Below, one piece after another: positions 12,998-59,512 of a stretch of 64,000 nt of DNA (the stretch's first letter is position 1; each line of letters opens with the position of its first letter). Source of the stretch: Nitrospirota bacterium (GTDB lineage Bacteria > Nitrospirota > Nitrospiria > Nitrospirales > Nitrospiraceae). The position numbers and the translations under genes were made by a program. The stretch covers positions 124,001-188,000 of the forward strand of contig SCVN01000002.1 in NCBI GenBank assembly GCA_004296885.1, written 5' to 3'. Under the pieces are notes generated by a model. It did no database searches. It saw only the letters and a program-made list of their open reading frames with translations, and was not told the origin of the DNA.

Positions 12998-13011
12998 GGC
13001 CGGGTCACGCA

Positions 13012-13881: not shown

Positions 13882-14572
13882 GCCTCGACCGAATACCGTG
13901 GCCATCGTGGACTACGGCCGCGGCAACCTGTTCAGCGTCAAGCACGCCTGTGAGCGGGCCGGCCTGGTTGCGGACATCACGAGCCGCCCGGCCGAGATCC
14001 TCGCGGCCGACGCCGTTGTGCTGCCCGGGGTCGGCGCCTTCGGGGATGCGATGGCCACGCTGTCGACGCTGGACCTCGTGAGTTGTCTGAAGGATGTCGC
14101 CGCTTCGGGCAAGATCCTGTTCGGCGTCTGCCTGGGCATGCAACTGCTGATGACCGAAAGCCGTGAATTCGGCCGGCATAGGGGGCTCGGGCTGATCGAT
14201 GGGGAGGTCGTCCAGCTGCCGGACGTGGACGCGGGCGGCGAGCCGGTCAAGGTCCCGCAGGTGGGGTGGAACCGGATCGGCTCGCCGGACCCGGCGCGGT
14301 CCGCGTCGCGATGGACCGGCACGCCGCTCGAAGGACTGACGGAAGGGGAATATATGTATTTTGTGCATTCCTTCTACTGCCGGCCCTTCGATCCGGGCGT
14401 CGTGCTCTCGACGACGCGCTACGGCGGGGCGGAATTCTGCTCGACGCTCCGATCCGGGAACATCTTTGCTTGCCAGTTCCATCCGGAGCGTAGTAGTTTT
14501 CAGGGCATTCGCATCTATCGAAATCTATCCACACTAATCACGCGATTCACGAGGGAGGCACAGGGTGTCTAG
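13874..14572 (+). CDS. hisH: HisH-like glutamine amidotransferase subunit
   Basis: Class I glutamine amidotransferase of about 232 residues that releases ammonia from glutamine. The nucleophile elbow GVCLGMQLL holds the catalytic Cys, and the His-Glu pair is in FACQFHPERSS near the C-terminus, so the triad is complete. YGRGNLFSVKHA near the start is typical of HisH. The ATG at 13874 overlaps the HisF stop by 8 bases; an in-frame start at 13835 is possible but gives a non-conserved extension. Together with HisF and the adjacent PP-loop enzyme it forms the known LPS amidination trio, which converts an N-acetyl to an acetamidino group. Confidence 0.86.
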   Translation: MSEPRPNTVAIVDYGRGNLFSVKHACERAGLVADITSRPAEILAADAVVLPGVGAFGDAMATLSTLDLVSCLKDVAASGKILFGVCLGMQLLMTESREFGRHRGLGLIDGEVVQLPDVDAGGEPVKVPQVGWNRIGSPDPARSASRWTGTPLEGLTEGEYMYFVHSFYCRPFDPGVVLSTTRYGGAEFCSTLRSGNIFACQFHPERSSFQGIRIYRNLSTLITRFTREAQGV

Positions 14573-15785
14573 TAACCTGGAAGCCAAATATGGGCTGCCT
14601 GAAACGGTCGTTTTTTGCAAGCGGTGCGTGATGTCGAACCAACGCCCGTCCTCGTCCATCGAGTTCAAGCATGGCAAGGACCGCCGGCATGCGACGTTGC
14701 AGTTCAATGAGGACGGTGTGTGCGATGCGTGCAAGGTGGCCGAGAAGAAGGACGCGATCGACTGGGAGCAGCGCGAAAGCGAGCTCCTGGAGCTGCTGGA
14801 CAAGCATCGCCGCAAAGACGGCTACTATGACTGCGTGGTGCCTGGCAGCGGAGGCAAGGACAGCGCCTATGCCGCCCATGTTCTTAAGTACAAGTATGGA
14901 ATGCATCCGTTGACCATCACCTGGCCGCCCATTCTCTATACGGACGTCGGCTTGAAGAACTTCCGAAGCTGGATCGAGATTGGCGGGTTCGACAATGTGA
15001 CCTTCAAGCCCAATGGTCGCGCCCAGCGGCTGCTGACGCGGCTCGCAATCGAGAACCTGTTACACCCCTTTCAAACTTTCATCCTCGGACAGAAGAATCT
15101 GGCTCCCAAGATCGCCGCCAAATACAAGGTGCCCCTCATTTTTTTCGGCGAACATGAAGCGGAATACGGAAATCCCATCGCGGAGACTTCCAGTTCACTC
15201 CGCGACAAATCCTATTTTGTCATGCAGGACCTCTCGGAGGTGCAGCTGGGAGGGGTCTCGATACGCGAGCTTCAGGATCGGTACGGGCTATCGCTTAACG
15301 AGATCATGCCGTATCTTCCGGCTGACTATAAGGAGCTGGAACAGTCGCAGATCGAGGTGCGGTATCTCGGCTATTATCTCAAGTGGACGCCCCAGGAGTG
15401 CTACTACTATGCGGTGGAGCATACCGGTTTCGAGGCGAATCCGGTCCGGACGGAAGGCACGTACAGCAAATACAACAGCCTCGATGACAAGATCGACGGA
15501 TTCCATTACTACACGACGTTTATCAAGTTCGGACTCGGACGGGCCACGTACGACGCTTCCCAGGAGATCAGGAACAAGCATTTGACCAGGGAAGAAGGGG
15601 TGGCCTTGGTGCGGCGGTTTGACGGTGAGTTTCCGGAGCGCTATTTCCAGGAAGTGATGGAATATATCGGGATGAAACCCGAGCGATTTCTGGAACTCTG
15701 CGACCAATTCCGGTCCCCTCATCTCTGGGCCAAGGAGGGAGGACAGTGGCGGCTGCGGCACCCGGTCCATGGTGAACCCGCATGA
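14565..15785 (+). CDS. N-acetyl sugar amidotransferase (WbpG/PseA-like PP-loop enzyme)
   Basis: A 406-residue PP-loop ATP pyrophosphatase. A zinc-type Cys pair FCKRCVMS near residue 18 and CDAC are at the N-terminus, and the PP-loop PGSGGKDSAYAAH is near 90-102. It would adenylate the N-acetyl amide of a nonulosonate or amino sugar and replace the oxygen with HisF/HisH-derived ammonia, giving an acetamidino group as in legionaminic or pseudaminic derivatives. The GTG start, with GGGAGG upstream, overlaps the HisH stop by 8 bases. Its stop overlaps an upstream candidate start (ATG 15782) of the next gene. The exact acceptor position is not readable. Confidence 0.85.
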   Translation: MSSNLEAKYGLPETVVFCKRCVMSNQRPSSSIEFKHGKDRRHATLQFNEDGVCDACKVAEKKDAIDWEQRESELLELLDKHRRKDGYYDCVVPGSGGKDSAYAAHVLKYKYGMHPLTITWPPILYTDVGLKNFRSWIEIGGFDNVTFKPNGRAQRLLTRLAIENLLHPFQTFILGQKNLAPKIAAKYKVPLIFFGEHEAEYGNPIAETSSSLRDKSYFVMQDLSEVQLGGVSIRELQDRYGLSLNEIMPYLPADYKELEQSQIEVRYLGYYLKWTPQECYYYAVEHTGFEANPVRTEGTYSKYNSLDDKIDGFHYYTTFIKFGLGRATYDASQEIRNKHLTREEGVALVRRFDGEFPERYFQEVMEYIGMKPERFLELCDQFRSPHLWAKEGGQWRLRHPVHGEPA

Positions 15786-15800
15786 CCGAGGCTCATCACC

Positions 15801-15806
15801 AAGGAG
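15801..15806 (+). promoter_or_regulatory. Ribosome binding site for the CBS-nucleotidyltransferase
   Basis: AAGGAG at 15801-15806 is eight bases before ATG 15815. The competing ATG at 15782, which overlaps the previous stop as ATGA, lacks a comparable site. Confidence 0.5.
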
Positions 15807-15814
15807 CTGTGACC

Positions 15815-16891
15815 ATGGTCTCCGACATCACCGAGTACTGCGTTTCACCGGCCAGCACCATCCGGCAAGTTATTGCCTGCATCGAACGAAACAGCGGCGG
15901 CACCGCGCTGGTCGTGGGTCCGGAGGGGAGGCTCCTGGACGTCATCACGGACGGCGACGTGCGCCGGGCCATTCTTGCGGGGTTGTCGCTGGACGAATCC
16001 ATCAGCGTCTTGCGAAGCCGACGGGCGCATTCCGCCTATCCCGAACCCGTGACCGCCTTGATCGGCACGGAGCCCGAGGAGTTGCTGCGTCTGATGCAGG
16101 AGCGGGCTGTGCGGCAGATCCCCCTCGTGGATGAAAGCCGCCGGGTCACGAAACTGGTCTTCCTGCGGGACCTGCTCCCCGATGAGACCTGGCCGCTTCA
16201 GGCCGTGGTGATGGCGGGGGGGTTCGGCAACCGCATGCGTCCGCTCACCGAGAAGATGCCCAAGCCCATGCTGCCGGTCAGCGACAAGCCGCTGCTGGAG
16301 CTGATCCTGCAGCAGCTCCGCGAGGCCGGGGTCCGGCGCGTGAACGTCACGACGCATTACAAGAGCGAGGTGATTGCCAATCACTTCGGCGATGGACGCA
16401 ACTTCGGCGTGGAAATCAATTACATCCAGGAGGATCAGCCGCTGGGCACGGCCGGGGCGTTGAACTTCGTGGACAAGTCCGAAGGACCGCTGTTGATCAT
16501 GAACGGCGATATCATCACCCAGGTGGATTTTCGGGCCATGGTGGACTTCCACAGGGACAACCGGGCGGATATGACGGTCGGAGTCCGGCTGTATGAGCTC
16601 AGCGTGCCCTACGGAGTCATGGAAACGGAGGGCATCGACATCACGGGAATTTCAGAAAAGCCGGTGTTGAAGCATTTCATCAACGCCGGAATCTACCTGC
16701 TCGATCAATCCATGCGTCGGTACATTCCGACGGGGCAGCCGTTTGACATGCCCGATCTGATCAAGGGGCTCATCGCGGAAGGGCACCGGGTGGTGAGTTT
16801 TCCGATCCATGAATATTGGCTCGATATCGGCCATCACGCGGATTACGAGAAGGCGCTGGCCGATGCCAAGGAAGGCAAGATCGCGTCGTGA
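15815..16891 (+). CDS. ptmE: CBS-domain nucleotidyltransferase (PtmE-like sugar-1-phosphate guanylyltransferase)
   Basis: Two-part protein of about 358 residues. Residues 1-120 form a CBS pair (TIRQ, then TDGDVRRAIL, then IPLVDESRRV). From about residue 130 a nucleotidyltransferase domain follows (VVMAGGFGNRMRPLTEKMPKPMLPV, GTAGALNF, MNGDI, EYWLDIGH). The same architecture is known in Campylobacter PtmE, which makes GDP-GlcN for the legionaminic pathway, and in related proteins. The CBS pair probably binds a nucleotide or product and regulates activity. Its closest relative in this window is the CBS pair fused to an aminotransferase at 48488. ATG 15782 is an alternative start. The end overlaps the next GTG (GTGA). 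Confidence 0.82.
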   Translation: MVSDITEYCVSPASTIRQVIACIERNSGGTALVVGPEGRLLDVITDGDVRRAILAGLSLDESISVLRSRRAHSAYPEPVTALIGTEPEELLRLMQERAVRQIPLVDESRRVTKLVFLRDLLPDETWPLQAVVMAGGFGNRMRPLTEKMPKPMLPVSDKPLLELILQQLREAGVRRVNVTTHYKSEVIANHFGDGRNFGVEINYIQEDQPLGTAGALNFVDKSEGPLLIMNGDIITQVDFRAMVDFHRDNRADMTVGVRLYELSVPYGVMETEGIDITGISEKPVLKHFINAGIYLLDQSMRRYIPTGQPFDMPDLIKGLIAEGHRVVSFPIHEYWLDIGHHADYEKALADAKEGKIAS

Positions 16892-17871
16892 ACTGGTCGG
16901 GCAAGAAAGTGCTCGTCACGGGAGCCGGCGGGTTCATCGGCAGCCATTTGGCGGAAGGGCTCGTCGAACGGGGAGCGCAGTGCCGCGCGTTTGTCCGCTA
17001 CAATTCTGCGGGGAGCCACGGATGGCTGGACGGTTCCCCCATCAAGAGCGAGATCAAGGTGTTCGCGGGGGACATCGGCGACCGGGATGGCGTCGTCCAG
17101 GCGATGCGCGGGGTGGACATCGTGTTTCACCTGGCGGCTTTGATCGGGATTCCCTATTCCTATGCGGCGCCGGCCGCCTACGTCCGCACCAACATTGAAG
17201 GCACCCTCAATGTCCTGCAGGCGGCCCGCGAGCTGGGCCTGGAGCGGGTCATCCACACGTCCACAAGCGAAGTCTACGGAACCGCCCGCTATGTGCCGAT
17301 CGACGAAGAGCATCCGCTGCAAGGGCAATCGCCGTATTCGGCCTCCAAGATCGGCGCGGATCAATTGGCGCTGTCTTTCGCGCGCTCGTTCGACCTGCCC
17401 GTCGTGGTCGTGCGGCCGTTCAACACTTACGGGCCCCGCCAATCGGCCCGCGCGGTGATCCCGACGATCATCGCCCAGTGCCTGGCCGGCGGTGCGGTCA
17501 AACTGGGCAGCCTGACCCCCACGCGCGACCTGAACTTCGTGGTGGACACCGTGGAGGGGTTCTGCCTGGCGGCCGGGCCGTCCGCGGCGATCGGCCGGGT
17601 GATCAATCTCGGCAGCGGCAAGGAGATATCGATCGGAGACTTGGCTCGCAAAATAGCCGATCTCATGCAGGTGGGGCTCGACGTTGAATTTGAAACGGAG
17701 CGCGCCCGCCCGCGCAACAGCGAGGTTGAGCGGCTCTGCGCCGCCAATCAGCGCGCGCGCGAGCTGTTAGGCTGGGCTCCCCGGCACACGCTCGAAGTCG
17801 GTCTGACACGGACGATCGAATGGATGCAGGTACACCGTGACTGCTACCGTCCCAATGTCTATGCAGTGTGA
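16888..17871 (+). CDS. legB: Nucleotide-sugar 4,6-dehydratase (LegB-like extended SDR)
   Basis: Extended SDR of about 327 residues. TGAGGFIGSHLAEGL spans residues 11-25, followed by FHLAALIGIPYSY, STSEVYGTA near 127, YSASKIGADQLA near 150 and RPFNTYGPRQSARA. This pattern (STSEVYGTA, then PYSASKIGAD, then PFNTYGPRQSARA) resembles the family of 4,6-dehydratases in legionaminic clusters. Those give the 4-keto-6-deoxy intermediate that an aminotransferase (LegC) then aminates. No LegC gene lies next to it here. GTG 16888 overlaps the previous stop; the frame is open upstream to 16816. Substrate (GDP- or UDP-HexNAc) is inferred from the PtmE-like neighbour. Confidence 0.78.
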   Translation: MNWSGKKVLVTGAGGFIGSHLAEGLVERGAQCRAFVRYNSAGSHGWLDGSPIKSEIKVFAGDIGDRDGVVQAMRGVDIVFHLAALIGIPYSYAAPAAYVRTNIEGTLNVLQAARELGLERVIHTSTSEVYGTARYVPIDEEHPLQGQSPYSASKIGADQLALSFARSFDLPVVVVRPFNTYGPRQSARAVIPTIIAQCLAGGAVKLGSLTPTRDLNFVVDTVEGFCLAAGPSAAIGRVINLGSGKEISIGDLARKIADLMQVGLDVEFETERARPRNSEVERLCAANQRARELLGWAPRHTLEVGLTRTIEWMQVHRDCYRPNVYAV

Positions 17872-47172: not shown

Positions 47173-47238
47173 CCGCCCTGGCTGAGGGATCCCGCAAGGC
47201 GACGAATTACAACCGGATCGTTGAGAAGCAGGAGGGTT

Positions 47239-48408
47239 ATGCCAGGATTTGAAATCATCGGGGATGAGGAGCGACAGGCGGTCAACGAGGTCTTCGAGCG
47301 GAGCGCGGTCCTGCTCCGGTTCGGCTTCGACGAGGCGCGCCGCCAGGTCTTCAAGGTCAAGGAGTTCGAAACGGCGTTCGCGACGAGGCTGGGGGTCCGC
47401 CGTGCCCAGGCCGTCACGTCCGGCACGGCCGCCGTCAAGGTGGGGTTGAAGGCGCTGGGCGTCCGGCCAGGGGACGAGGTCGTCACCCAGTGTTTCACGT
47501 TCGTGGCCACGGCGGAGGCGATCCTCGAGTGCGGGGCGGTGCCGGTCTTTACGGAAGTCAATCGCACCTTGAATATGGACCCCGAGGACCTGGCCCGGAA
47601 GATCACGCCGAAGACGAAGGCGATCATCCCGGTGCACATGCTGGGCGCCGCCGCGCCGATGGCGGAGCTCCTCGAGATCGCCGACCGGCATGGCATTCCG
47701 GTGCTCGAGGATGCCGCCCAGGCCTGCGGCGGGCAATACCGGGGCCGTCCCCTGGGAAGCTGGGGGCGCGCGGGGGCGTTCAGCTTCGACTTCGGCAAGG
47801 CCCTCACGACCGGCGAAGGCGGCATGGTCGTGACCGACCGGGAGCCGGTCTATTCGAGCGCCCGCGCGTACTCGGACCACGGGCACGAGAGCAATCCGGC
47901 CGTGCCCCGCGGCGAGGACACGCGCTCCGCGCCGGGATTCAACTACCGCATGATGGAGCTGCAGGGGGCAATCGGCCTGGTCCAGCTCGCGAAGCTCGAC
48001 GGCGCGGTGAAGCGGCAACGGGAGAACAAGGCCAGGATCAAGCAGGCGCTCCAGGGGATCACCGCCGTCCGGTTCCGGGAGTTCGCGGACGAGGAAGGGG
48101 AGACCGGGGACACGCTCGTCTTGTTCCTCGACGATCCCAAAGCGGCGTCCCGGGCGGCTCGGGATCTGCTCGCCGAGGGCGTGCGCTTCCGCATCCTGCC
48201 CGAGGCGCTGACTTGGCATTTTGCCGGGACCTGGGAGCACATGCTGCCGGGGCTCGAGCGCTACCGGGGCAAGGCCATCGCGCGCGAATGGCCCCTGTCG
48301 GAGGCCTTGCTCCGGTGCGCCATCGCCATCCCGATCTTCATCAAGATGGATGACGCGAAGCTCCAATGGACGATCGATCGGTTGGTGAAAGTGCTGCGGC
48401 AATGCTGA
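47239..48408 (+). CDS. DegT/DnrJ/EryC1 aminotransferase (KdnA-like)
   Basis: A 389-residue PLP-dependent sugar aminotransferase. TSGTAAVKVGLKALG near 57 binds the cofactor phosphate, VLEDAAQACGG near 155 provides the ring-binding Asp, and SFDFGKALTTGEGG holds the PLP Lys near residue 187. The N-terminus PGFEIIGDEERQAV and the SFD version of the Lys motif resemble the subgroup that includes the 8-amino-3,8-dideoxy-octulosonate transaminase KdnA. Other keto-sugar substrates are equally possible. The ATG is preceded by AGGAGGG. It could also fill the LegC role missing next to legB, though its position 30 kb away argues against this. Confidence 0.82.
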   Translation: MPGFEIIGDEERQAVNEVFERSAVLLRFGFDEARRQVFKVKEFETAFATRLGVRRAQAVTSGTAAVKVGLKALGVRPGDEVVTQCFTFVATAEAILECGAVPVFTEVNRTLNMDPEDLARKITPKTKAIIPVHMLGAAAPMAELLEIADRHGIPVLEDAAQACGGQYRGRPLGSWGRAGAFSFDFGKALTTGEGGMVVTDREPVYSSARAYSDHGHESNPAVPRGEDTRSAPGFNYRMMELQGAIGLVQLAKLDGAVKRQRENKARIKQALQGITAVRFREFADEEGETGDTLVLFLDDPKAASRAARDLLAEGVRFRILPEALTWHFAGTWEHMLPGLERYRGKAIAREWPLSEALLRCAIAIPIFIKMDDAKLQWTIDRLVKVLRQC

Positions 48409-48487: not shown

Positions 48488-49939
48488 TTGAGCACACGGT
48501 TGGAATCGGTCCTGGTGTCTCCCGACGCGACGATCAGGCAGGCGCTGTCGGTCATCGATACGGGCGGCCTGGGCGTGGCGCTGGTCGTGAACGGCCGGCG
48601 GCAGTTGTTGGGTCTGGTCACGGACGGAGATTTGCGACGGGCCATGTTGGACGGGCACGGCCTGGAGGCGGAGGTCCGCCTGGTGATGAACCCGGAACCG
48701 ATGACCGCATCGAAGGCCACGCCCCGCGAACAGGTGTTCGGCCTGATGAACGTGAAGATCCGGCATATTCCCGTCCTGGACGAGGACCGGCGGGTCTGCG
48801 ACCTGGTGTGTTTCGTCGAACTGTCCAGGAAGATCCCCTGGGCGATCCCCTACATCGGCGAGGAGGAGCAGAACGAGGTCGCGGACACGGTCCGTTCCGC
48901 CTGGGTGACCATGGGTCCGAAAGTCGCCAGGCTGGAGCGGGAGATGGCCGCGTACGTTGGAGTGAAGTATGCGGTGGCGGTCTCCAGCGGCACGGCGGCG
49001 CTGGATGTGGCCCTCAAGGTGTTGCACATTGGGCCGGGCGACGAGGTGATCGTGCCGGCGCTCACGTATATCGCGACGGCGAACGCCGTGCTCTACCAGC
49101 ACGCCACGCCGGTGCTGGCCGACGTGGACCCGACGACGTTCAACCTGGACCCGGAGGATGTCAGGCGGCGCATTACGCCGCGGACCAAGTGCATCATGCC
49201 GATCGATTATGGCGGCCAGTCCGCCGACTATGACGCGCTGGGCCGGATCGCGCGCGAGCACGGACTCGCGCTTGTCGAGGACGGCGCGCAGTCGCTCGGG
49301 GGGGAGTACAAGGGGCGGCGGTTATGCTCCTTCGGCGTCATGAGCACGGTGAGCTTCCATGCCGCCAAGGTGATCACCTCGGTGGAAGGCGGCATGGTCC
49401 TCACAGACGACGAGAAGCTGGCCGACCTCGCCCGGGTTCTCCGCAACCAGGGCGAGGATCCGGTGAACAAGTACCATCATGCCGTGCTCGGACACAACTA
49501 TCGCATGACCGACCTTCATGCGGCCGTCGGCCTGGCGCAGTTCCGGCGGCTCAACGAGGTGCTCCGGCGGCGCGCCGAGATCGCCGACTTCTACACCAAA
49601 CGGCTGACCGGGCTGGAGGGCAAGCTGACGCTGCCCGCGGTGGCGCCCGAGCGCCGGCACGCGTGGTTTTTCTACCCCGTGCTACTTCACAACCGGGACG
49701 AGGTCGTCGGCTACCTGAAGGAGAAGGGCATCGACACGCGGATCGCCTGGCCGCTGCCGATCCACAAGCAGCCGCTGTACCGGTCGTTCTTCGAAGGCGC
49801 GCGGTTTCCGGTGGCCGAGCGCCTTGCCGACTCGGTGTTGAATCTGCCGCTCTACTACGAAATGTCCGAAGAGGAGGCGCAGTACGTCGTGATGCACCTC
49901 AAGGACGCGGTGACCCGCGCGGGAAAGACAGCCCGATGA
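48488..49939 (+). CDS. CBS-pair fused to DegT/DnrJ/EryC1 aminotransferase
   Basis: A 483-residue fusion. Residues 1-118 are a CBS pair (SPDATIRQALSVID, LVTDGDLRRAMLDG, IPVLDEDRRVCDLV). Residues 120-483 are a complete DegT aminotransferase with SSGTAALDVALKVL near 172, VEDGAQSLGGEYKG near 263 and the PLP Lys in FHAAKVITSVEGG (near 294). The CBS pair is homologous to that of the PtmE-like nucleotidyltransferase at 15815 (shared TIRQ, TDGDxRRA and RRV positions). A CBS pair on an aminotransferase is unusual and suggests allosteric control of a sugar amination. TTG start with GGGAGG upstream. The end overlaps the next ATG (ATGA). Confidence 0.85.
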   Translation: MSTRLESVLVSPDATIRQALSVIDTGGLGVALVVNGRRQLLGLVTDGDLRRAMLDGHGLEAEVRLVMNPEPMTASKATPREQVFGLMNVKIRHIPVLDEDRRVCDLVCFVELSRKIPWAIPYIGEEEQNEVADTVRSAWVTMGPKVARLEREMAAYVGVKYAVAVSSGTAALDVALKVLHIGPGDEVIVPALTYIATANAVLYQHATPVLADVDPTTFNLDPEDVRRRITPRTKCIMPIDYGGQSADYDALGRIAREHGLALVEDGAQSLGGEYKGRRLCSFGVMSTVSFHAAKVITSVEGGMVLTDDEKLADLARVLRNQGEDPVNKYHHAVLGHNYRMTDLHAAVGLAQFRRLNEVLRRRAEIADFYTKRLTGLEGKLTLPAVAPERRHAWFFYPVLLHNRDEVVGYLKEKGIDTRIAWPLPIHKQPLYRSFFEGARFPVAERLADSVLNLPLYYEMSEEEAQYVVMHLKDAVTRAGKTAR

Positions 49940-50886
49940 GCTGGCAGGGGACCAGGGTCGTGGTGACCGGGGGGGGCGGGTTTCTCGGCAGCCACCTCTG
50001 CGACGCATTGGTTTCCCGAGGTGCCTGCGTCACGGCCATCGACGATTTTTCGTACGGCTCGCCCGCGCATCTCAAGACCGTCTCCGCAGGGGTCAACGTG
50101 GTGCGGTGCCGGCTGGGGGAGCAGGCCGAGAGCCTCAAGGAGGCCCTGGAGGCCGACGTCCTGTTCCATCTGGCCGCCGTGGCCGATCCGCGGCGCTGCA
50201 AGGCGGATTTCGAGTCGGCGTTCCGGTCCAACGTCCTCGGGCTGAAGGCGTGTCTGGAAAGTGCGGGCCGGCTGCGGCGCCTCATCTTCATGTCCAGCGC
50301 GAGCGTCTACGGCGAACCCGAGTATGTACCGATCGACGAGAGGCATCCGCTGAAGGGGAAGGATCCCTACTCCGTCACGAAGGCCATCGGCGAGTGGCTC
50401 TGCCGGCACTACAGGGAGAATGCCGGTCTCCCCATCACGATCGTCCGCAACTTCAACACGTTCGGGCCGAGGCAATCGGGCGCCTACCTCATTCCCACGC
50501 TGATCGGGCAGGCCTTGTCCCGGGGAAAGATCGAGATGTGGAACGCGGCTCCGGTCAGGGACTTCACGTTCGTCTCCGACGCCGTGGCGGCGCTCATGCT
50601 GCTGGCGGAAGCGGACGGCGCGGAGGGCCTCACCGTCAATCTGGGGCAGGGCGCGGGCATCCGGGTCGGCGAGCTCGCGGCGGGGATCGCCGCCCTGTTC
50701 GGCGTGCCCCTCGTGGATCTCCGGCAGGAGGTCATCGGCAGCCCCGAGCTGGTCTGTGACAACGCGCGGCTGAAAGCCGTCACCGGCTGGGCCCCGCGGG
50801 TCAGTCTGGAGGAGGGCCTGCGGGCGACGATTGAGTATTTCCGGGAACGGAACGGGACCGGCCTTGAGCCGGCCAGACAGCCATGA
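49936..50886 (+). CDS. NAD-dependent sugar epimerase/dehydratase (extended SDR)
   Basis: A 316-residue extended SDR. VVVTGGGGFLGSHLCDAL lies at residues 8-25, FHLAAVADPRRCK near 77, MSSASVYGEPEYVP near 118, YSVTKAIGEWLC near 145 and RNFNTFGPRQSGAYL near 173. The RNFNTFGPRQ pattern is shared by UDP-glucose 4-epimerase and 4,6-dehydratase-like enzymes. It probably provides the keto-sugar for one of the two preceding aminotransferases, though 4-epimerisation is equally likely. The ATG overlaps the CBS-DegT stop, and its own stop overlaps the next start, so it sits within a coupled set. Confidence 0.8.
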   Translation: MSWQGTRVVVTGGGGFLGSHLCDALVSRGACVTAIDDFSYGSPAHLKTVSAGVNVVRCRLGEQAESLKEALEADVLFHLAAVADPRRCKADFESAFRSNVLGLKACLESAGRLRRLIFMSSASVYGEPEYVPIDERHPLKGKDPYSVTKAIGEWLCRHYRENAGLPITIVRNFNTFGPRQSGAYLIPTLIGQALSRGKIEMWNAAPVRDFTFVSDAVAALMLLAEADGAEGLTVNLGQGAGIRVGELAAGIAALFGVPLVDLRQEVIGSPELVCDNARLKAVTGWAPRVSLEEGLRATIEYFRERNGTGLEPARQP

Positions 50887-51815
50887 CGATGAAATCGGGT
50901 CCGGCTGCGGCCGCCGCCGGCGCGCCGCGACCGTCATCGGGCCGGCGCGGGGAGGACCGGATCTACGTCTCGACGGGGGCGTTCAAAACGCGCGACCTCG
51001 GGCAGATCCTCGACGTCTGCCTGCGGGAAGGCGTCCATCGCCTCGAGCTCAGCTCCGGCACCGCCTTTTCGGAGCATCTGCTCGATCTGGTCCGGCGGTC
51101 CCGCGGGACGCCGATGCGGTTTCTCGTGCACAACTACTTCCCGCCCCATCGGATCCCCTTCGTGCTGAACCTCGCCTCCACCGACCCGCAGGCCCTGGTC
51201 CGGTCGCGCGACCATTGCCGGACGGCCATCGCGCTGGCCGCCGAGGTCGGGGCCCCGTTCTTCAGCGTCCACGCGGGCGCCGCGATGAACGCTAGGCCCG
51301 AGGATCTCGGACAGCCGCAGACCCATCTGGTCCACGGGGACGTCCGGCGCGCCTACGAGCTGTTCGTGGAGAGCGTGTCGGAGCTGGCGCGGGCCGCCGC
51401 CGCCGCGGGCGTCTCGCTGCTCATCGAAAACCACGTCGTGGCCCCCTTCAATCTGATCGAGGGGGAGAACCGGTTCCTGTTCGCCAGCACGGCGGAGGAC
51501 ATCCTGCGGCTGATGGAGGACGTGGGCGCCCCCAATCTCGGCCTCCTCCTCGACGTAGGGCACCTGAAGGTCACGGCTGCGTCGCTCGGCTTCGACCCCC
51601 GCCGGCTGGTGGAACGGGTCGCCCCCTTCGTGCGCGCCTTTCATCTGAGCGACAACGACGGCAAGTCCGACCAGAACCTTCCCTTCGGCCGCGAGGCCTG
51701 GTTCATGGACCTGCTCGCCGACTTTCCCGAGGCCACCTACATCATTGAAGCCTACCGGCTGGAGCCGCCCGAAATCCGGGCCTGCCGGGAGGCTGTGCTG
51801 GACGCCGTACAGTAA
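50883..51815 (+). CDS. Sugar phosphate isomerase/epimerase-like TIM-barrel protein
   Basis: A 310-residue protein of the xylose isomerase-like/AP endonuclease 2 TIM-barrel superfamily. An Ala/Pro-rich N-terminal ~25 residues is followed by strand motifs HRLELSSGTAFS, PFFSVHAGAAMN, SLLIENHVVAPFN, GLLLDVGHLKVTA and AFHLSDNDGKSDQ. The Glu, Asp-His and Asp residues in these motifs are the usual metal ligands. Members isomerise or epimerise sugars or sugar acids. In this cluster it may isomerise a precursor for the adjacent Fe-ADH-like or aminotransferase enzymes. The substrate is not known. ATGA overlap with the previous gene. Confidence 0.75.
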   Translation: MTMKSGPAAAAAGAPRPSSGRRGEDRIYVSTGAFKTRDLGQILDVCLREGVHRLELSSGTAFSEHLLDLVRRSRGTPMRFLVHNYFPPHRIPFVLNLASTDPQALVRSRDHCRTAIALAAEVGAPFFSVHAGAAMNARPEDLGQPQTHLVHGDVRRAYELFVESVSELARAAAAAGVSLLIENHVVAPFNLIEGENRFLFASTAEDILRLMEDVGAPNLGLLLDVGHLKVTAASLGFDPRRLVERVAPFVRAFHLSDNDGKSDQNLPFGREAWFMDLLADFPEATYIIEAYRLEPPEIRACREAVLDAVQ

Positions 51816-51834: not shown

Positions 51835-53019
51835 ATGGCCATGGAGTCGATTGACAGCGGGCGCTTTCAATTCACGCTGCACACCCACGTGCACGTGGGC
51901 CGCGGGGTCAGCGGGCGGCTGCCGGACGTGCTGCAGGAGTCCGGCTTCCGCAGGATCGCCCTGGTGGTAGACGGGGGCGTGACCGCCAACCCCACGTTCG
52001 TGACGTTGCGCGATCGGCTCGCCGGTTCCTTCGACCTGGTCCACGAGCTCGTCAACCGGGTGAGCGAGCCGGACTACGACTATCTCGACGAGTGCCGGGA
52101 CCGTCTCGCCGCCAAGCCGTTCGACTGCCTGATCGGCTTCGGGGGCGGCAGCTCGCTGGACCTGACCAAGGCGCTTTCGGTGCTGATCACGAATCCCGGC
52201 AAGGCCCTGCAATACCGGGGATACAATCTTATCAAGCAGCCGGGCGTGCCGGTCTTCGCCCTGCCCACGACCGCCGGCACCGGGGCCGAAGTGACGCCCA
52301 ACGCCGTCTTCACGGAGTCGAAGGAGAAGCGCAAGTTCGGCATCAACACGTCTCTCTACCTGCCCAAGGTCGCGTTCCTGGACCCGCTGCTGACCGTGAC
52401 CTGCCCGAAGAGCGTCACCGTCGCGTCGGGGGTGGACGCGCTGATGCAGGCGATCGAGAGCTTCGTCGCGACGAAGGCGACGCCCGCCTCGCGGGTGTTT
52501 TCGCGGGAAGCGTTCAGGCTGGTGTTTGCGGCGCTCCCGAAGGTCGTGCGGGAACCGGAGAACCTGGATCACCGGGAGGCCATGCAACTGGGGGCCTACT
52601 ACTCGGGGATCGCGCTGATGAACTCCGCCCCAGGGCCGGCGGGCGCGATGTCCTATCCGCTGGGCGTCCATTACAAGGTCCCCCACGGGCTGGCCCACGC
52701 GGTCTTCGAACCCACGATCGTGCGTTGGAACGTGGAGCGCGGCTGCACCTTGTATGAGGACCTGTACGGCCTGATCGACGGGGCGCCGCAGGGGCTCGAC
52801 CCGAAGGGGAAGGGGGCCGAGTTCCACCGGCGCCTGACCGCCCTCTACGACGAGGTCGGGATTCCGCGCTCCCTGGCGCCCTTCGGCATCTCCCCTCAGG
52901 ACGTCCGGTTTCTAGCGGAGCAAACCGTGCTGCTCAAGGCCGCCATCGACTTCAACCCCGTTCCGATCTCCGTCGAAGACATCACGACAATTCTAGCCAG
53001 CATGATCAAGCAAGGATAG
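51835..53019 (+). CDS. Iron-containing alcohol dehydrogenase-fold protein with incomplete metal site
   Basis: About 394 residues of the Fe-ADH/dehydroquinate synthase-like superfamily. GFGGGSSLDLTKALS near 100 binds NAD(P) phosphate, LPTTAGTGAEVTP near 140 is well conserved, and SGVDALMQAIESF near 200 and VPHGLAHAVFEP near 285 form the metal region. Compared with FucO-type ligands (Asp196, His200, His263, His277), the Asp and the last His (PHG) are kept. The His in DALxH is Gln (DALMQ), and the His before AHPLG is Gly (AGAMSYPLG). It may oxidise a sugar alcohol or sugar acid in the amino-sugar route. GGGAAGGG precedes ATG 51835; ATG 51841 is possible. Confidence 0.78.
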   Translation: MAMESIDSGRFQFTLHTHVHVGRGVSGRLPDVLQESGFRRIALVVDGGVTANPTFVTLRDRLAGSFDLVHELVNRVSEPDYDYLDECRDRLAAKPFDCLIGFGGGSSLDLTKALSVLITNPGKALQYRGYNLIKQPGVPVFALPTTAGTGAEVTPNAVFTESKEKRKFGINTSLYLPKVAFLDPLLTVTCPKSVTVASGVDALMQAIESFVATKATPASRVFSREAFRLVFAALPKVVREPENLDHREAMQLGAYYSGIALMNSAPGPAGAMSYPLGVHYKVPHGLAHAVFEPTIVRWNVERGCTLYEDLYGLIDGAPQGLDPKGKGAEFHRRLTALYDEVGIPRSLAPFGISPQDVRFLAEQTVLLKAAIDFNPVPISVEDITTILASMIKQG

Positions 53020-53110
53020 CTGGGGTCCGTCTATTGCCAGGGCCATGTCCTGGCCTCTCGAAAAACACGTAGTTTCCGCCGCAGACAAAATTATCGAAAG
53101 GCTTCTGTTC

Positions 53111-53836
53111 ATGGAAAATAATCTCAAAGAATTGTGGGAACGTACGGCCACAGATACCAGAGGAGTCGTCTGGTATCCGAACGAGTTTGTCATTCGCTTC
53201 CTTGCGAAATACGTCCGGAAGCGAGTGGGGATCGATGAATACAGGGTGATACACGAGATCACGCGGGCTTTGGACCTTGGATGTGGCCATGGTCGGCACG
53301 TGATCATGCTTGCGGAACAGGGTTATGACGTGGCAGGTATCGACATCTCGGATGTAGCCATCGGCGTTGCGCGGGATTGGGTTGCCAAGAAGGGCTTGAA
53401 AGCAGATCTCCGAACAGGGACGGTTACCGCTCTGCCCTATAGCGATAGTGTCTTCGATCTTGTAATGAGCCACGGCGTGTTGGACCACATCTATTACGAC
53501 GAATCGCGAGAGGCGGTGCGTGAGATACACCGGGTATTAAAGCCTAACGGGCTTCTGTATGTGGATCTGATCAGCGCCTTGGAGTCTGGATGCGGCCAAG
53601 GCCGGGAAGTTGGACGGCGTACATACATTGTACCTGATGGAGCCGAGGCGGGGGTCCCTCAGAGATTTTTCGAGTTAGAAGATGTGATGGATTTACTTCG
53701 AGATCACTTTACGATCCAGGATGTCGTCCTCTCCCAATGGGAACCGGTCTTCGGTGAAGGTTTCTCTAATTTGGATAAGGAGAACGGCCGCTATCCAAGG
53801 GCGGCTCGGTATCACGTGGCAGCAATAAGGAAATAG
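53111..53836 (+). CDS. SAM-dependent methyltransferase (class I), low-G+C gene
   Basis: About 241 residues. The SAM motif ALDLGCGHGRHVIML is near residues 54-68, the acidic motif VAGIDISD follows, LPYSDSVFDLVMSHGVLDHI near 117 is the Methyltransf_11 core, and REIHRVLKPNGLLYVDL near 140 completes it. It would methylate a sugar or nonulosonate group. Its base composition is far lower in G+C than the genes on either side (43% by count over 53101-53160), which marks it as separately acquired. ATG 53111 is chosen because it gives a normal domain start; the frame is open to 53045. Methyl acceptor unknown. Confidence 0.78.
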   Translation: MENNLKELWERTATDTRGVVWYPNEFVIRFLAKYVRKRVGIDEYRVIHEITRALDLGCGHGRHVIMLAEQGYDVAGIDISDVAIGVARDWVAKKGLKADLRTGTVTALPYSDSVFDLVMSHGVLDHIYYDESREAVREIHRVLKPNGLLYVDLISALESGCGQGREVGRRTYIVPDGAEAGVPQRFFELEDVMDLLRDHFTIQDVVLSQWEPVFGEGFSNLDKENGRYPRAARYHVAAIRK

Positions 53837-53841
53837 GAGAG

Positions 53842-54894
53842 ATGCACTGCATCAAGGTTGGTCGTCTCACAATTGGAGAAGAAAGTCCGTGTTTTATCAT
53901 CGCCGAGGCCGGGGTCAATCATAACGGTGACGTAGCAGTGGCAAGGCGCCTTGTGGAGGCTGCCAAGGAAGCGGGCGCCGGTGCCGTGAAGTTCCAGACC
54001 TTTACGACCGAATCGGTCATCATCGCGCAGGCGCCCAAGGCCGACTACCAACGACAGACGACGGACGCGTCTGAATCGCAGCTGGAGATGCTGCGGAAGC
54101 TGCAGCTCTCCCACCGGGACTTCCGCGGGCTGAAGGAAGAGGCGGACCGGGTCGGCATCCTGTTCTTCTCCACGCCGCACGATACGCGGGACATCGACTT
54201 CCTCGTCTCCGTCGGGGCGCCCCTGATCAAGGTCCCCTCCATGGACATCGTCAACCTTCCGCTGCTGGAGGAAGTCGGCCGCCGCAAGGTTCCGGTCGTC
54301 CTGTCCACCGGCATGGCCACCCTGTCCGAGACGGAGCGGGCCCTGGCGACGCTCCGGCAGGCCGGGTGCCCCTCGATCATCCTGCTGCACTGCGTGACGA
54401 ACTATCCGATCAAGGACGAGGAGGCCAACCTCAGGGTCATGGATACCCTGGCCCGGGCATTCGACTGCATCGTGGGCTTTTCGGACCATACGGTCGGCAC
54501 GGCCATCGCGGTGGCCGCGGTCGCCCGAGGGGCCAAGGTCATCGAAAAGCATTTCACCCTGGACTGCGCGATGGCGGGACCGGACCATGCCGCCTCGCTC
54601 GATCCATCCCAGTTTGCGCAAATGGTCACCGACATCCGGCGGGTCGAGCAGGCGCTCGGCTCCGAGGTCAAGCGGCCGCTCCCCGTGGAGCTGGCCAACC
54701 GCAAGGCCATGCGGCGCAGCCTCGTCGCGGACGCGGACCTTCCGGCCGGGACGGTGCTGGCGCGGGAACACGTGACGCTGAAGCGTCCCGGCACGGGGCT
54801 CGGCGCCGAACTCCTCCCCTATCTGCTCGGACGGACCGTGAAGCGCATGGTCCCCAGAGACTCCCTGATCACGCTCGATATGTTGTTCGAATGA
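53842..54894 (+). CDS. neuB: Second nonulosonic acid synthase (NeuB family)
   Basis: A 350-residue NeuB-type synthase with the full motif set: EAGVNHNGDVAVA, VKFQTFTTESV, FFSTPHDTRDIDFL, KVPSMDIVNLPLL, LSTGMATLSE, LLHCVTNYPI, SDHTVGTA and IEKHFTLDCAMAGPDH. The SAF domain starts near RRSLVADADLPAG. It differs clearly from the synthase at 10785 (for example STPHDTRD against STPFDEES), so the two probably make different nonulosonates. No NeuC-type epimerase is adjacent, so its sugar substrate must come from another route. The ATG has AGGAGA shortly upstream; the end overlaps the next ATG (ATGA). Confidence 0.88.
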   Translation: MHCIKVGRLTIGEESPCFIIAEAGVNHNGDVAVARRLVEAAKEAGAGAVKFQTFTTESVIIAQAPKADYQRQTTDASESQLEMLRKLQLSHRDFRGLKEEADRVGILFFSTPHDTRDIDFLVSVGAPLIKVPSMDIVNLPLLEEVGRRKVPVVLSTGMATLSETERALATLRQAGCPSIILLHCVTNYPIKDEEANLRVMDTLARAFDCIVGFSDHTVGTAIAVAAVARGAKVIEKHFTLDCAMAGPDHAASLDPSQFAQMVTDIRRVEQALGSEVKRPLPVELANRKAMRRSLVADADLPAGTVLAREHVTLKRPGTGLGAELLPYLLGRTVKRMVPRDSLITLDMLFE

Positions 54895-55733
54895 ACGCGC
54901 TCGTGACCGGCAATTCCGGTTTGATCGGGAAAGTCCTGGTCGCCCGTCTCGGCGCGATCCCCGGCGTGCGGGTCCGGTTGTTCCGCACGCCGGAGGCCCT
55001 CCGGGACATCCGGGACCGGCAGGCCGTGCGCGAGGCCCTGAAGGGAATGAACGCTGTCTTTCACCTCGCCAGCCTGTTGAACTATCGGCGCGCCACGGTG
55101 GATGCGATGCGCGCGGTGAACGTCGAGGGGACGCGGCACCTGCTCGATGAAGCCCTGGCCGCCGGGATCTCCAACGTGATCGTCGCCTCCAGCCAAGCTG
55201 TATATGCCGCCTCAGAGGGATGCCCCGGTCCGTTCAATGAGGAAACGTCGCTTCGCACAAAGGATGCTTACAGTGATTCTAAACGGGAGGCCGATGAGTT
55301 ATGCCAAAAGTATCTCGGCGGACAATTATGTATGAGCATCCTTCGGCTGGCGACGATTTATGGTTCGGAATTTTCACGCCTAGAGGATGTGGTTGCTCGT
55401 TTTGTGGATGAAGCTAGAGGCAATGGAGTTATCAGACTGTTTGGCAAGGGACAGCGGATCAGAGATTTGGTCTTCGTCGAAGATGCGGTGGAGGCGATGC
55501 TCAAACTCCAGGGAACCGCGGGTGTCTTCAATATTGGTGGGGGGAGGCCCTACATGACTAGGGAGATTGCCGAAACGGTGAGGGAAGCGGTCGGGGGACG
55601 TATCGAGTACGACGGGCCGCAGGAAGAGGAGACGGGCTTCTACCTGGATATTTCGAAGGCCCGCGCGGCCATCGGCTATGAGCCGGTCGGGTTCGGGACG
55701 GGTCTGCAGCGGTCCCTGGCGGTCCATGCCTGA
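54891..55733 (+). CDS. NAD-dependent epimerase/dehydratase (SDR) with internal composition shift
   Basis: A 280-residue extended SDR. ALVTGNSGLIGKVL is at the N-terminus, FHLASLLNYRRAT near 52, VASSQAVYAASEG near 99 (Ser segment), and YSDSKREADELCQKY near 126 with the Tyr/Lys pair. FGKGQRIRDLVFVEDAVEAML is near 182. It is probably a nucleotide-sugar reductase or epimerase feeding the second nonulosonate. The codons from about 55200 to 55560 are much richer in A+T than those before and after, although the frame is intact. This suggests recombination inside the gene. The ATG overlaps the preceding stop. Confidence 0.76.
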   Translation: MNALVTGNSGLIGKVLVARLGAIPGVRVRLFRTPEALRDIRDRQAVREALKGMNAVFHLASLLNYRRATVDAMRAVNVEGTRHLLDEALAAGISNVIVASSQAVYAASEGCPGPFNEETSLRTKDAYSDSKREADELCQKYLGGQLCMSILRLATIYGSEFSRLEDVVARFVDEARGNGVIRLFGKGQRIRDLVFVEDAVEAMLKLQGTAGVFNIGGGRPYMTREIAETVREAVGGRIEYDGPQEEETGFYLDISKARAAIGYEPVGFGTGLQRSLAVHA

Positions 55734-55742
55734 GAGTCGAAG

Positions 55743-56789
55743 ATGAGCCGGGCGCCGGTCACAGTGCTGGTCACGGGAGCAGGGTCGGCCTGCGGGGTCA
55801 ACATCATCCATTCCCTGCGTCATGCCGGAGGCTACCGGATCGTGGCGACCGATATCTTTTCCGCCTCGGCGGGGCTGGTGCTGGCCGACAAGGGCTATGT
55901 CATTCCCAAGGAGGGGTCCGACGGCAAGTATCTGGACGCCATCCTGGACATTGCGAAACGGGAATCCGTCCAAGCCTTGATCCCCGGGTTTGACGCGGAG
56001 CTTCCCTACCTCTCGGCAGCCGGCGGCACACTCCGGGCGCAGGGCGTGGTGCCGGTCATCGGCGAGCCCGACTTCATCCGCATCGCCAACGACAAGCTGG
56101 CAACGCAGCAGTTCCTGGCCGCCAACGGGTTCCCGTTCCTGCGCAGCTATGGAGCGGCGGAGCAGGCGCAGGCGGTCGCCGAGCTGGGGTTCCCGCTGGT
56201 CGTCAAGCCGCGCTCGGTCTGGGGCTCCCGGGGCGTGCAGGTGGTCGGGAGCGAGGCGGCGCTGCGGCAGGCGGTGGATCACATCGTGAGCCTGGGATGG
56301 GAGCCGCTGCTCCAGGAGTTCATCCCCGAGACGGAGGGCGAGTTCACCAACAGCGTGGCCGTCGCCACCGACCATGACATGCTCGGCGTCGTCTGCATGC
56401 GCCGCGAGTTGGAGAAGGGCGATTCGCGGCGCATCTTCCTGGACGACTTCCCGGACCTGAAACGGCAGTGCGAGGCGATCGCCCGCGCCCTGAACACGAG
56501 CGGTCCCATCAACATCCAGTGCCGGCTGCTCAAAGGGCGCGCCTACGTGTTCGAATTCAACGCCCGATTTTCCACGACGAACATCGTGCGGACGGCGGCG
56601 GGGTACAATGAGGTGGATGCCCTGGTGAAGAATTTTCTGACCGGCGAGAAGGTCCTGTTCAAGGGGTGCCCGCCGGTCGTCGCCATCATGTACCTGGACT
56701 ATGTCTACGTGAAGGCGGACGCCTATCAGGCCCTCAAGGAGGCCGGGGTCACCGGCCGCGCAGGCCACGTCCGGAACCGGCTCGGATGA
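55743..56789 (+). CDS. ATP-grasp enzyme (carbamoyl-phosphate synthase-like fold)
   Basis: A 348-residue ATP-grasp protein. An N-terminal preATP-grasp domain (VLVTGAGSACGVNIIHSLR) is followed by NDKLATQQFLAANGFP near 117, FPLVVKPRSVWGSRGVQVV near 151 and QEFIPETEGEFTNSV near 197. INIQCRLLKGRAYVFEFNARFSTT near 258 carries the metal-binding Glu and Asn residues. Such enzymes activate a carboxylate with ATP and ligate it to an amine or other nucleophile. Located between an SDR and a PHP phosphoesterase in the second nonulosonate module, it may attach an acyl or amino-acid group to an amino sugar. Substrates are not known. Confidence 0.82.
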   Translation: MSRAPVTVLVTGAGSACGVNIIHSLRHAGGYRIVATDIFSASAGLVLADKGYVIPKEGSDGKYLDAILDIAKRESVQALIPGFDAELPYLSAAGGTLRAQGVVPVIGEPDFIRIANDKLATQQFLAANGFPFLRSYGAAEQAQAVAELGFPLVVKPRSVWGSRGVQVVGSEAALRQAVDHIVSLGWEPLLQEFIPETEGEFTNSVAVATDHDMLGVVCMRRELEKGDSRRIFLDDFPDLKRQCEAIARALNTSGPINIQCRLLKGRAYVFEFNARFSTTNIVRTAAGYNEVDALVKNFLTGEKVLFKGCPPVVAIMYLDYVYVKADAYQALKEAGVTGRAGHVRNRLG

Positions 56790-57550
56790 CCGGCGGCGAA
56801 TCCATACAAGGGGAGAGAGGGGTGCTGCCTTTTTGCGAGGCGGCGGCCCTGCTGCGGGACGTCCCGCTCACGGACATGCATTTGCACACCACCTACACCG
56901 ACGGCCGCATGAGCGTCGCGGAGGTGCTGGAACTGACCAAGGCCAACGGGCTGCGGGAGATCGGCTTCACCGACCATGCGCGGCGGACCTCGACCTACGT
57001 GCCCGCCTATCTGGACGAGATCGGCCGGGAGGCCGCCCGGATTTGTCCCGAGATGCGGGTCTTCCGGGGACTCGAGGTGAAGATCACGACGCTTGCCGGC
57101 GAGATCGATCTCGCCGAGTCAGCGGCGGCCTCGCTCGATTTCGTCGTCGGCTCTCTCCACCGCCTGCCGGCGAAGCCGGATGAAGAGGTCTTTGTCAGTT
57201 GGAACCAGGTCGAGCCGTCCCGCGCCGTGGACGTGGAAGTCGAGGCGACGCTGGCGATGGTGCGGCTGGGGCGCGCACAGGTCGTGGGGCATCTGGGGCG
57301 GGTCTTTCTCGAACATTACCACGTGCCCTTCCCCGACAGCGCCATCCGGACGATCGTGGAGGGTGCGAAGCGACATCGCGTCGCTATCGAGCTCAATGGC
57401 CGGTTCCCGGCCGAGCATTTCGCGCGGGTGCTTCATCACTGTCTCGACGTCAACTGTCTCGTGGCCGTGAGTTCCGATGCCCATAAGGCCGAGGACGTCG
57501 GCCTGGGGGTGCGGATGCTCCGCGCGGCCTTGCAGGATCTGTCCGCATGA
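56786..57550 (+). CDS. PHP-domain phosphoesterase (histidinol phosphatase-like)
   Basis: A 254-residue PHP protein. The metal-binding HxH is in DMHLHTTYTDG near residue 30, GFTDHARR near 58 gives the third His, RGLEVKITT near 93 the Glu, GHLGR near 170 another His, and SSDAHKAEDVG near 231 the final Asp-x-His. All motifs expected for a tri-metal PHP phosphatase are present. PHP enzymes hydrolyse phosphate monoesters such as histidinol phosphate. Inside the nonulosonate module it might dephosphorylate a nonulosonate-9-phosphate or a sugar-phosphate precursor; this is inference. The start overlaps the ATP-grasp stop by 4 bases (ATGA) and the end overlaps neuA likewise. Confidence 0.85.
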   Translation: MTGGESIQGERGVLPFCEAAALLRDVPLTDMHLHTTYTDGRMSVAEVLELTKANGLREIGFTDHARRTSTYVPAYLDEIGREAARICPEMRVFRGLEVKITTLAGEIDLAESAAASLDFVVGSLHRLPAKPDEEVFVSWNQVEPSRAVDVEVEATLAMVRLGRAQVVGHLGRVFLEHYHVPFPDSAIRTIVEGAKRHRVAIELNGRFPAEHFARVLHHCLDVNCLVAVSSDAHKAEDVGLGVRMLRAALQDLSA

Positions 57551-58263
57551 GCGCGGCGCGCCGTTTTCTCGGATTGATCCCCGCGCGCGGCGGATCGAAG
57601 GGAATTCCCCGGAAGAACCTCGTGTCCGTCGCCGGGAAACCGCTGATCGGCTATACCATCGAGGCGGCGCTCCGGAGCCGCCATCTCGACCGGGTGCTGC
57701 TCTCCACCGACGACGAGGAGATCGCGGAAACCGGCCGGCGGATCGGCCTCAAGGTCCCGTTTCTGCGCCCCGCCGAACTGGCCGCCGACGACACGCCCAT
57801 GATGGCGGTCATCAAGCACGCCCTCCGGGAGATCGCGAAGACCGAAGGCGACCAGCCGACGGTGGTGGTGCTGCTGCAGCCGACCTCGCCGCTCCGGACC
57901 GAGGCCCACATTGACGCCGCCATCGAGCTGTTCGAAAAGGAACAGGCCGACAGCGTCGTCAGCGTCTCGGAGCCGTTGGAGCATCCCTGCGACATGGTGT
58001 CGTTCGAAAACGGGACCATGACCCTGGCCCTCTCGGCAGAGGAGCGCTGGAAAGGCCGCCAGACTTATCCGAAGTTCTATTTCGTGAACGGGGCTATCTA
58101 TATCGTGAAAACGGAGCTGATCGGCGAGGCGAGGCACCCCTGGGGCGGGAAGACGGTCCCGTTTCTGATGAGCCCGCTGGAATCGATCGATGTGGATGGT
58201 CACGCGCAATTAACCATCACCGAACTCTTGCTCGGTCTAAGACAGATAAGGCAGGGGTTGTAG
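57547..58263 (+). CDS. neuA: Second CMP-nonulosonate cytidylyltransferase
   Basis: A 238-residue acylneuraminate cytidylyltransferase. FLGLIPARGGSKGIPRKN lies at residues 7-24, LSTDDEEIAETGRRIG near 56, LLQPTSPLRTEAHID near 112, and FVNGAIYIVKT near 180. It makes CMP-nonulosonate from the product of the synthase at 53842. It differs from the enzyme at 9236 (LQPTSPLR against LDPTTPCR), in keeping with two separate CMP-sugars. The ATG overlaps the PHP stop (ATGA). G+C falls sharply around its end (near 58200), where the next gene begins. Confidence 0.88.
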   Translation: MSAARRFLGLIPARGGSKGIPRKNLVSVAGKPLIGYTIEAALRSRHLDRVLLSTDDEEIAETGRRIGLKVPFLRPAELAADDTPMMAVIKHALREIAKTEGDQPTVVVLLQPTSPLRTEAHIDAAIELFEKEQADSVVSVSEPLEHPCDMVSFENGTMTLALSAEERWKGRQTYPKFYFVNGAIYIVKTELIGEARHPWGGKTVPFLMSPLESIDVDGHAQLTITELLLGLRQIRQGL

Positions 58264-58296
58264 ATTTCATAACTGTGGGATCACGATAAATCTTCG

Positions 58297-59466: not shown

Positions 59467-59512
59467 AACTCACGTAATTCAGACCGGTGAATAACCGAGT
59501 GAGGCTCTTAAG

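Follow-up and report, generated by a model that had tools for sequence, protein, structure and literature searches.

In Clostridioides difficile, the carbamoyl-phosphate-synthetase-like ATP-grasp gene CDR20291_0245 is needed for the terminal peptidylamido-Fuc3N cap (PMC5207246; structure, PMC5207245). In Leptospira, the fusion of a phosphatase to a NeuB-type synthase has been reported, together with the proposal of an animal-like 9-phosphate route (PMC3438082). In Sinorhizobium meliloti 1021, the roughly 30-kb nodP2-SMb21248 cluster is thought to make a sulfated polysaccharide; seven of its genes are activated by Clr, and the SMb21227 protein responds to PhaR (PMC5498481, PMC12542648). The present analysis concerns a five-gene module at positions 53842-58263 of a 64,000-nucleotide stretch of contig SCVN01000002.1 from a Nitrospirota bacterium (hereafter the window), in which genes for a candidate ATP-grasp ligase and a candidate PHP phosphoesterase lie between the nonulosonate genes neuB and neuA. 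The locus reads as a second NeuB/NeuA sub-operon within a large island of the legionaminic type, and the ATP-grasp and PHP genes as a portable pair that would tailor amino sugars by amide formation, an overall model with conjectural reaction steps whose probability I put at about 0.5.

The five genes proposed by the initial annotation, in the order neuB, short-chain dehydrogenase/reductase (SDR), ATP-grasp, PHP and neuA, were confirmed to the nucleotide, all on the forward strand. The neuB/SDR, ATP-grasp/PHP and PHP/neuA junctions are ATGA overlaps, and 9 nt separate the SDR and ATP-grasp genes. NeuB2 (53842..54894) is a Neu/Leg-branch nonulosonate synthase with a SAF domain (37 bits): it passes the TIGR03569 NeuB_NnaB equivalog model with 423.8 bits (cut-off 399.65), matches PF03102 with an E value of 6.6e-94 and stays under the cut-off of the PseI model (283 bits against 340). 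Its closest solved structures are sialic acid synthase, SpsE and PseI, and it is 47% identical to NeuB1, the other synthase of the window. The extended SDR (54891..55733; PF01370, 116 bits) displays the motifs GNSGLIG and YSDSK. NeuA2 (57547..58263; PF02348, 90 bits) is a CMP-nonulosonate cytidylyltransferase whose top solved match is CMP-Neu5Ac synthetase (E 3e-42). The claim of a second NeuB-centred module carrying an ATP-grasp and a PHP enzyme was borne out, and its gene order was seen nowhere else.

The PHP gene (56786..57550) encodes a stand-alone protein of 254 residues (PF02811, 50 bits), the predicted model of which has a confidence score (pLDDT) of 94.1. Foldseek matched this model to the PHP domain of PolX, to YcdX and to the HisJ/HisK histidinol phosphatases; with the fold and the metal-binding motifs present, the protein is by predicted structure a candidate PHP phosphoesterase. 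The motif positions H34, H64, E97, H125, H169, D231 and H233 are conserved. The first histidine of HxH is kept in the window protein and is a glutamine (QxH) in the rhizobial, the Chloroflexota and several NeuB-linked members, while the remaining positions are conserved among the relatives, bar an Asp-to-Asn change in locus L079. The protein falls outside the HisJ subfamily (33.7 bits against a cut-off of 90.2). It resembles the YcdX, PolX and HisJ phosphoesterases in its predicted fold and in most metal-motif positions, but differs from them in standing alone and in residing in sugar loci, and a PHP profile splits the module members (E 1e-59 or better) from the PolX background (1e-32 or weaker).

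The ATP-grasp gene (55743..56789) encodes a candidate carboxylate-amine ligase of the PRK12767 family with a PylC-like N-terminal domain. It scores 280 bits against NF009402 (PRK12767, 'carbamoyl phosphate synthase-like'; cut-off 218), and residues K155-P156, E200, Q259, E271, N273 and R275 are invariant across 15 relatives. The best Foldseek match of its predicted model (pLDDT 89.9) is 2pn1; biotin carboxylases, PurT, PurK and PylC were also retrieved, and the predicted fold alone does not choose between ligase and carboxylase chemistry. The suggestion that this enzyme joins an acyl group or an amino acid to an amino sugar gives the best current guess of its role, which would be amide-forming. 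A different arrangement was seen in locus L108, which has no proper PHP/ATP-grasp pair: its ATP-grasp (L108:393-2495) is fused to a FemAB/GNAT-like domain, and the neighbours comprise another ATP-grasp, this one joined to a flavin oxidoreductase, as well as a PglD-like gene and an AMP-binding/luciferase/formyltransferase fusion.

Searched against plasmids, the PHP protein matched loci on Sinorhizobium pSymB. Scanning the PHP alignment against 84,980 species genomes returned 35 loci, and among the loci examined the PHP gene directly adjoins an ATP-grasp gene in 30, with a 4-nt overlap in 21 and a distance within 80 nt in most of the others. The pairs belong to Pseudomonadota, Bacteroidota, Bacillota, Elusimicrobiota, Acidobacteriota, Chloroflexota, KSB1 and archaea, a recurrence across phyla that puts the adjacency beyond chance. 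The PHP gene comes first in 29 loci, and the ATP-grasp gene comes first in the archaeal locus L105 and in the window; since the pair is kept in both orders, the association survives rearrangement. The pair is also rare. Module-level PHP matches, the seed genome included, numbered 2 of 396, 1 of 398, 1 of 350 and 1 of 46 genomes in the phylum samples of L101, L078, L100 and L093, respectively; at E 1e-40 the Bacillota and Chloroflexota samples held no further copy and Acidobacteriota one more genome. In the window's own phylum (396 genomes, single-protein PHP search), only the window rose above PolX levels. Same-order relatives and this phylum sample gave only a background of carbamoyl phosphate synthases and PolX, apart from the window and L009, the latter with one ATP-grasp of 32% identity in a different gene setting. 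No description of a PHP/ATP-grasp pair was found in the searchable literature, papers on legionaminic acid included. The pair is thus apparently rare, widely scattered, linked to amino-sugar pathways and undescribed.

The initial annotation had cast the ATP-grasp and PHP genes as standing in place of NeuC. There is indeed no NeuC inside the five-gene module. However, the genome encodes a single hydrolysing NeuC, a UDP-GlcNAc 2-epimerase (11837..12997, forward strand; TIGR03568, 447 bits against a cut-off of 235.9) found in the same sugar island, 41 kb upstream of the module. The only other Epimerase_2 gene of the genome has its start before the window and seems to encode a 2-epimerase of the WecB type. 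NeuC belongs to module 1 (9236..17871, forward strand), a legionaminic-type, ptm-like set comprising NeuA1, an SDR, NeuB1, NeuC, HisF, HisH, the WbuX amidotransferase, PtmE and LegB; the two modules look interdependent.

Relatives tell the same story. Within about 10 kb on each side, the pair has a neuB in five loci, from a Mesoflavibacter metagenome-assembled genome (L077), a Lachnospiraceae metagenome-assembled genome (L078), Elusimicrobia (L092), Deltaproteobacteria (L093) and Sulfopaludibacter (L101). The gene order is NeuB-PHP-ATPg-NeuC-WbpG in L077 (ATPg, ATP-grasp), PtmE-NeuB-PHP-ATPg-SDR-NeuC in L078 and NeuB-NeuC-PHP-ATPg-SDR-HisF-HisH-WbpG in both L092 and L101; the L093 contig starts at the PHP gene. 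NeuC-PHP-ATPg was also found in L113, a genome from the phylum sample around L101. Compared gene by gene with module 1 of the window, L101 shows 61% identity for NeuB and 77% each for HisF and WbuX, the difference being that a PHP/ATP-grasp/SDR trio is inserted between NeuC and HisF. Given a NeuC in the genome and an intact one adjoining or close to the pair in L077, L078, L092, L101 and L113, the notion that the pair replaces NeuC was rejected, and the pair is very probably a portable unit instead. The tie to neuB itself held in part: it recurs in the five loci named above, but 25 of the 30 pairs are unlinked to neuB over the same distance.

The legionaminic affinity of the island is incomplete. 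Like Campylobacter-type leg/ptm clusters, the island holds homologues of NeuB, NeuA, NeuC, PtmE, LegB and HisF/HisH/WbuX, and NeuB2 sits on the Neu/Leg side. Unlike them, it has these genes distributed between two modules some 40 kb from each other, with the ATP-grasp and PHP genes between neuB and neuA. The LegB of module 1 is slightly under its cut-off (467 bits against 475). No LegC exceeds the cut-off anywhere in the genome; the best LegC/PseC candidate is a CBS-domain/DegT aminotransferase fusion (48488..49939, forward strand), under the cut-offs of both models (LegC, about 274-275 bits against 420; PseC, 309 bits). LegH was not identified. The ATP-grasp enzyme was considered as a stand-in for LegH, but this idea is unsupported, L078 holding the pair together with a hexapeptide transferase.

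Outside these loci the pair keeps other company. Whole-genome searches found no NeuB-family protein in three rhizobia and one archaeon, the archaeal pair being distant, and only weak matches (E 1e-8 to 1e-12) in KSB1, Thermoflexus and Paenibacillus. Depending on the locus, the neighbours of pairs without NeuB are a DegT aminotransferase, an initiating glycosyltransferase, a formyltransferase, a PIG-L deacetylase or AsnB, none of which occurs in the KSB1 locus L076. The rhizobial loci L084, L085 and L089 combine the pair with formyltransferase, PIG-L and DegT genes, the Chloroflexota loci L097, L099 and L100 have the order PHP-ATPg-DegT, and outside Sinorhizobium most pairs have a DegT sugar aminotransferase nearby. 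On pSymB, the PHP, ATP-grasp and SDR genes adjoin, with a 4-nt overlap, and there is no neuB. In S. meliloti 1021 this trio belongs to the nodP2-SMb21248 cluster, which also contains DegT, PIG-L and formyltransferase genes within about 27 kb. The SMb21227/SMb21228 region thus resembles the window in having the three genes side by side (33%, 30% and 28% identity for the ATP-grasp, PHP and SDR proteins, respectively), but differs from it in its links to sulfate activation, AsnB (in some strains), formyltransferase, PIG-L and DegT, and in that three related rhizobial genomes searched contain no NeuB.

The reading that best covers the settings with and without NeuB would have the ATP-grasp enzyme act on a nitrogen set by a DegT aminotransferase. 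The pair placed between neuB and neuA would then be a portable tailoring unit. Its ATP-grasp member would activate a carboxylate with ATP and form an amide on the nitrogen installed by the aminotransferase on a 6-deoxy sugar; for a legionaminic-type product, this nitrogen would sit at C7. Either the acyl donor or the coupled product may lose a phosphate ester to the PHP enzyme, and the SDR may adjust a hydroxyl. NeuC, presumably shared from module 1, NeuB2 and NeuA2 would subsequently convert the sugar to a CMP-nonulosonate, in an order of steps that is itself provisional. Accepting this scheme, the pair probably decorates amino sugars generally rather than replacing a missing sialic-acid enzyme. 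A genetic parallel comes from the type B flagellin region CDR20291_0244-0247 of C. difficile, likened to the window by annotation and context rather than by sequence, where an ATP-grasp gene lies near a DegT-type (FdtB) aminotransferase and an amide cap is put on an amino sugar; there, however, FemAB-like and ornithine-cyclodeaminase-like genes take the place of PHP, and no NeuB is reported (PMC5207246, PMC5207245). In its most specific form, the proposal is of an undescribed amide module, common to nonulosonates and other glycans in bacteria and perhaps archaea, that would attach a phosphorylated carboxylate, such as phosphoglycerate or a phosphoamino acid, to amino sugars before removing the phosphate. 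This version is speculative and rather unlikely.

Several observations weigh against amide tailoring by a conserved pair. The window pair is only about 30-35% identical to the other pairs, and the ATP-grasps of L105 and L102 are distant (23-28% identity to that of the window). The ATP-grasp fold also spans carboxylases and phosphate-transfer enzymes. The sequence retrieved for L076, L092 and L093 yielded no DegT gene, and in most Sinorhizobium loci none turned up inside about 10 kb. With a hexapeptide acyltransferase also encoded in L078, the pair is no simple LegH substitute in that locus. Lastly, the SDR is divergent and frequently absent from pair loci: SDR identities run at 20-30%, and the window SDR is only 25-29% identical to those adjoining the pair elsewhere. 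The SDR is therefore a looser partner, and the idea of a conserved third member is weakened.

In the initial annotation, the PHP enzyme could dephosphorylate a nonulosonate-9-phosphate. On this reading, NeuB would start from a 6-phosphate sugar, following the animal Neu5Ac pathway, and NeuC would be dispensable. PHP proteins are phosphoesterases, here with a fold match to HisJ/HisK, and the PHP gene overlaps neuA by ATGA. However, NeuC accompanies the pair in the NeuB-linked relatives, and some genomes with the pair lack NeuB (three rhizobial and one archaeal, with weak matches only in three others). Moreover, L101 and L078 carry LegB/LegC-type gene sets. A product of this legionaminic type is 9-deoxy, without a C9 hydroxyl to phosphorylate, and the products of these two loci would accordingly be 9-deoxy. 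Pairs without NeuB and 9-deoxy relatives together make the 9-phosphate route very unlikely. The Leptospira fusion offers a precedent for a phosphatase tied to a nonulosonate synthase, but there the phosphatase is a covalent C-terminal domain, whereas the window PHP is a separate protein whose pair is also found without NeuB (PMC3438082). Another possibility is that the ATP-grasp enzyme assembles amino acids into a small amide or peptide, which PHP dephosphorylates and a further enzyme transfers to the glycan. Such a carrier-bound or soluble precursor would suit a portable pair met with several sugar pathways, and is in line with the FemAB/GNAT fusion in L108 and with C. difficile, where several genes adjoining the ATP-grasp gene serve the peptidyl cap. 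Nothing FemAB-like was recognised next to the window pair or among the relatives linked to NeuB, and I regard this possibility as conceivable but unlikely.

The remaining alternatives involve the genes around the module, for the transcription unit exceeds five genes: closely spaced genes run on the same strand from 47221 to about 60475. The first encodes a KdnA-like DegT aminotransferase (47221..48408), with 5k8b, an 8-amino-3,8-dideoxy-Kdo (Kdo8N) transaminase, as best match (E 2.8e-80; next best, 8.9e-51). The CBS-domain/DegT fusion described above comes next, and its CBS domains echo the CBS-nucleotidyltransferase PtmE of module 1. It is followed by a LegB-like extended SDR, a sugar-nucleotide dehydratase/epimerase (49936..50886; TIGR04180, 176 bits, under the cut-off of 475), and, with a 4-nt overlap, by a xylose-isomerase-like TIM barrel (50883..51815; PF01261, 90 bits). 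An iron-containing alcohol dehydrogenase (51835..53019; PF00465/PF25137) and an S-adenosylmethionine-dependent methyltransferase (53045..53836; PF08241, 87 bits), 5 nt upstream of neuB and likely on the same transcript, lead up to the module, and a radical SAM gene and a Gfo/Idh gene form the 3' end of the run.

The KdnA-like aminotransferase and the alcohol dehydrogenase hint at an amino-ulosonate, in which these two enzymes would swap a side-chain hydroxyl for an amine that the ATP-grasp enzyme then acylates. KdnB is the iron-containing oxidase partner of KdnA in the Kdo8N route. The aminotransferase clearly prefers KdnA (273 against 176 bits), and the dehydrogenase shares its gene run as a KdnB would, but the latter is nearer to lactaldehyde/methanol dehydrogenases than to KdnB (5k8c; 168 against 78 bits), and no KdnA-like gene was noted beside the pair in relatives, where no separate test for one was made. 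This pathway is doubtful, and quite unlikely. It is also conceivable that SDR, ATP-grasp and PHP just ride along in a mosaic polysaccharide island and contribute nothing to nonulosonate synthesis. The GC fraction varies from 0.53 to 0.68 along 47-64 kb, and PHP is unmatched in two near-complete genomes of the same genus listed in the phylum sample; but three ATGA junctions bind these genes to neuB and neuA, and five other lineages have the pair beside or near neuB, which leaves the passenger hypothesis very unlikely.

The island has further irregularities. Its GC fraction drops to 0.53-0.56 at window positions 53000-54000 and 58000-60000 and is mostly 0.59-0.68 elsewhere, dips that suggest mosaic acquisition. 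Outside the window, at about 190.6-192.5 kb of the contig (L038:4577-6475), lies a third NeuB-family protein whose reading frame runs into a putative cytidylyltransferase-like (SpsF-like) C-terminal half. Next to it are an apparent glycosyltransferase-NeuA-like fusion (L038:5935-7857) and a short fourth NeuB/SpsE-like gene (L038:7790-8602). A gene that looks by its sequence like a 2-hydroxyacid dehydrogenase (L038:16345-17274) has a counterpart of 45% identity at the Lachnospiraceae pair locus (L078:1570-2469).

These comparisons caution that not every phosphatase-like gene next to neuB encodes a sialic acid 9-phosphatase. If amide tailoring is the right reading, SMb21227, its PHP neighbour and SMb21228 would constitute a concrete target gene set in the tractable S. 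meliloti, and a small portable enzyme pair would add an amide decoration to bacterial surface sugars, sialic-acid-like sugars included.

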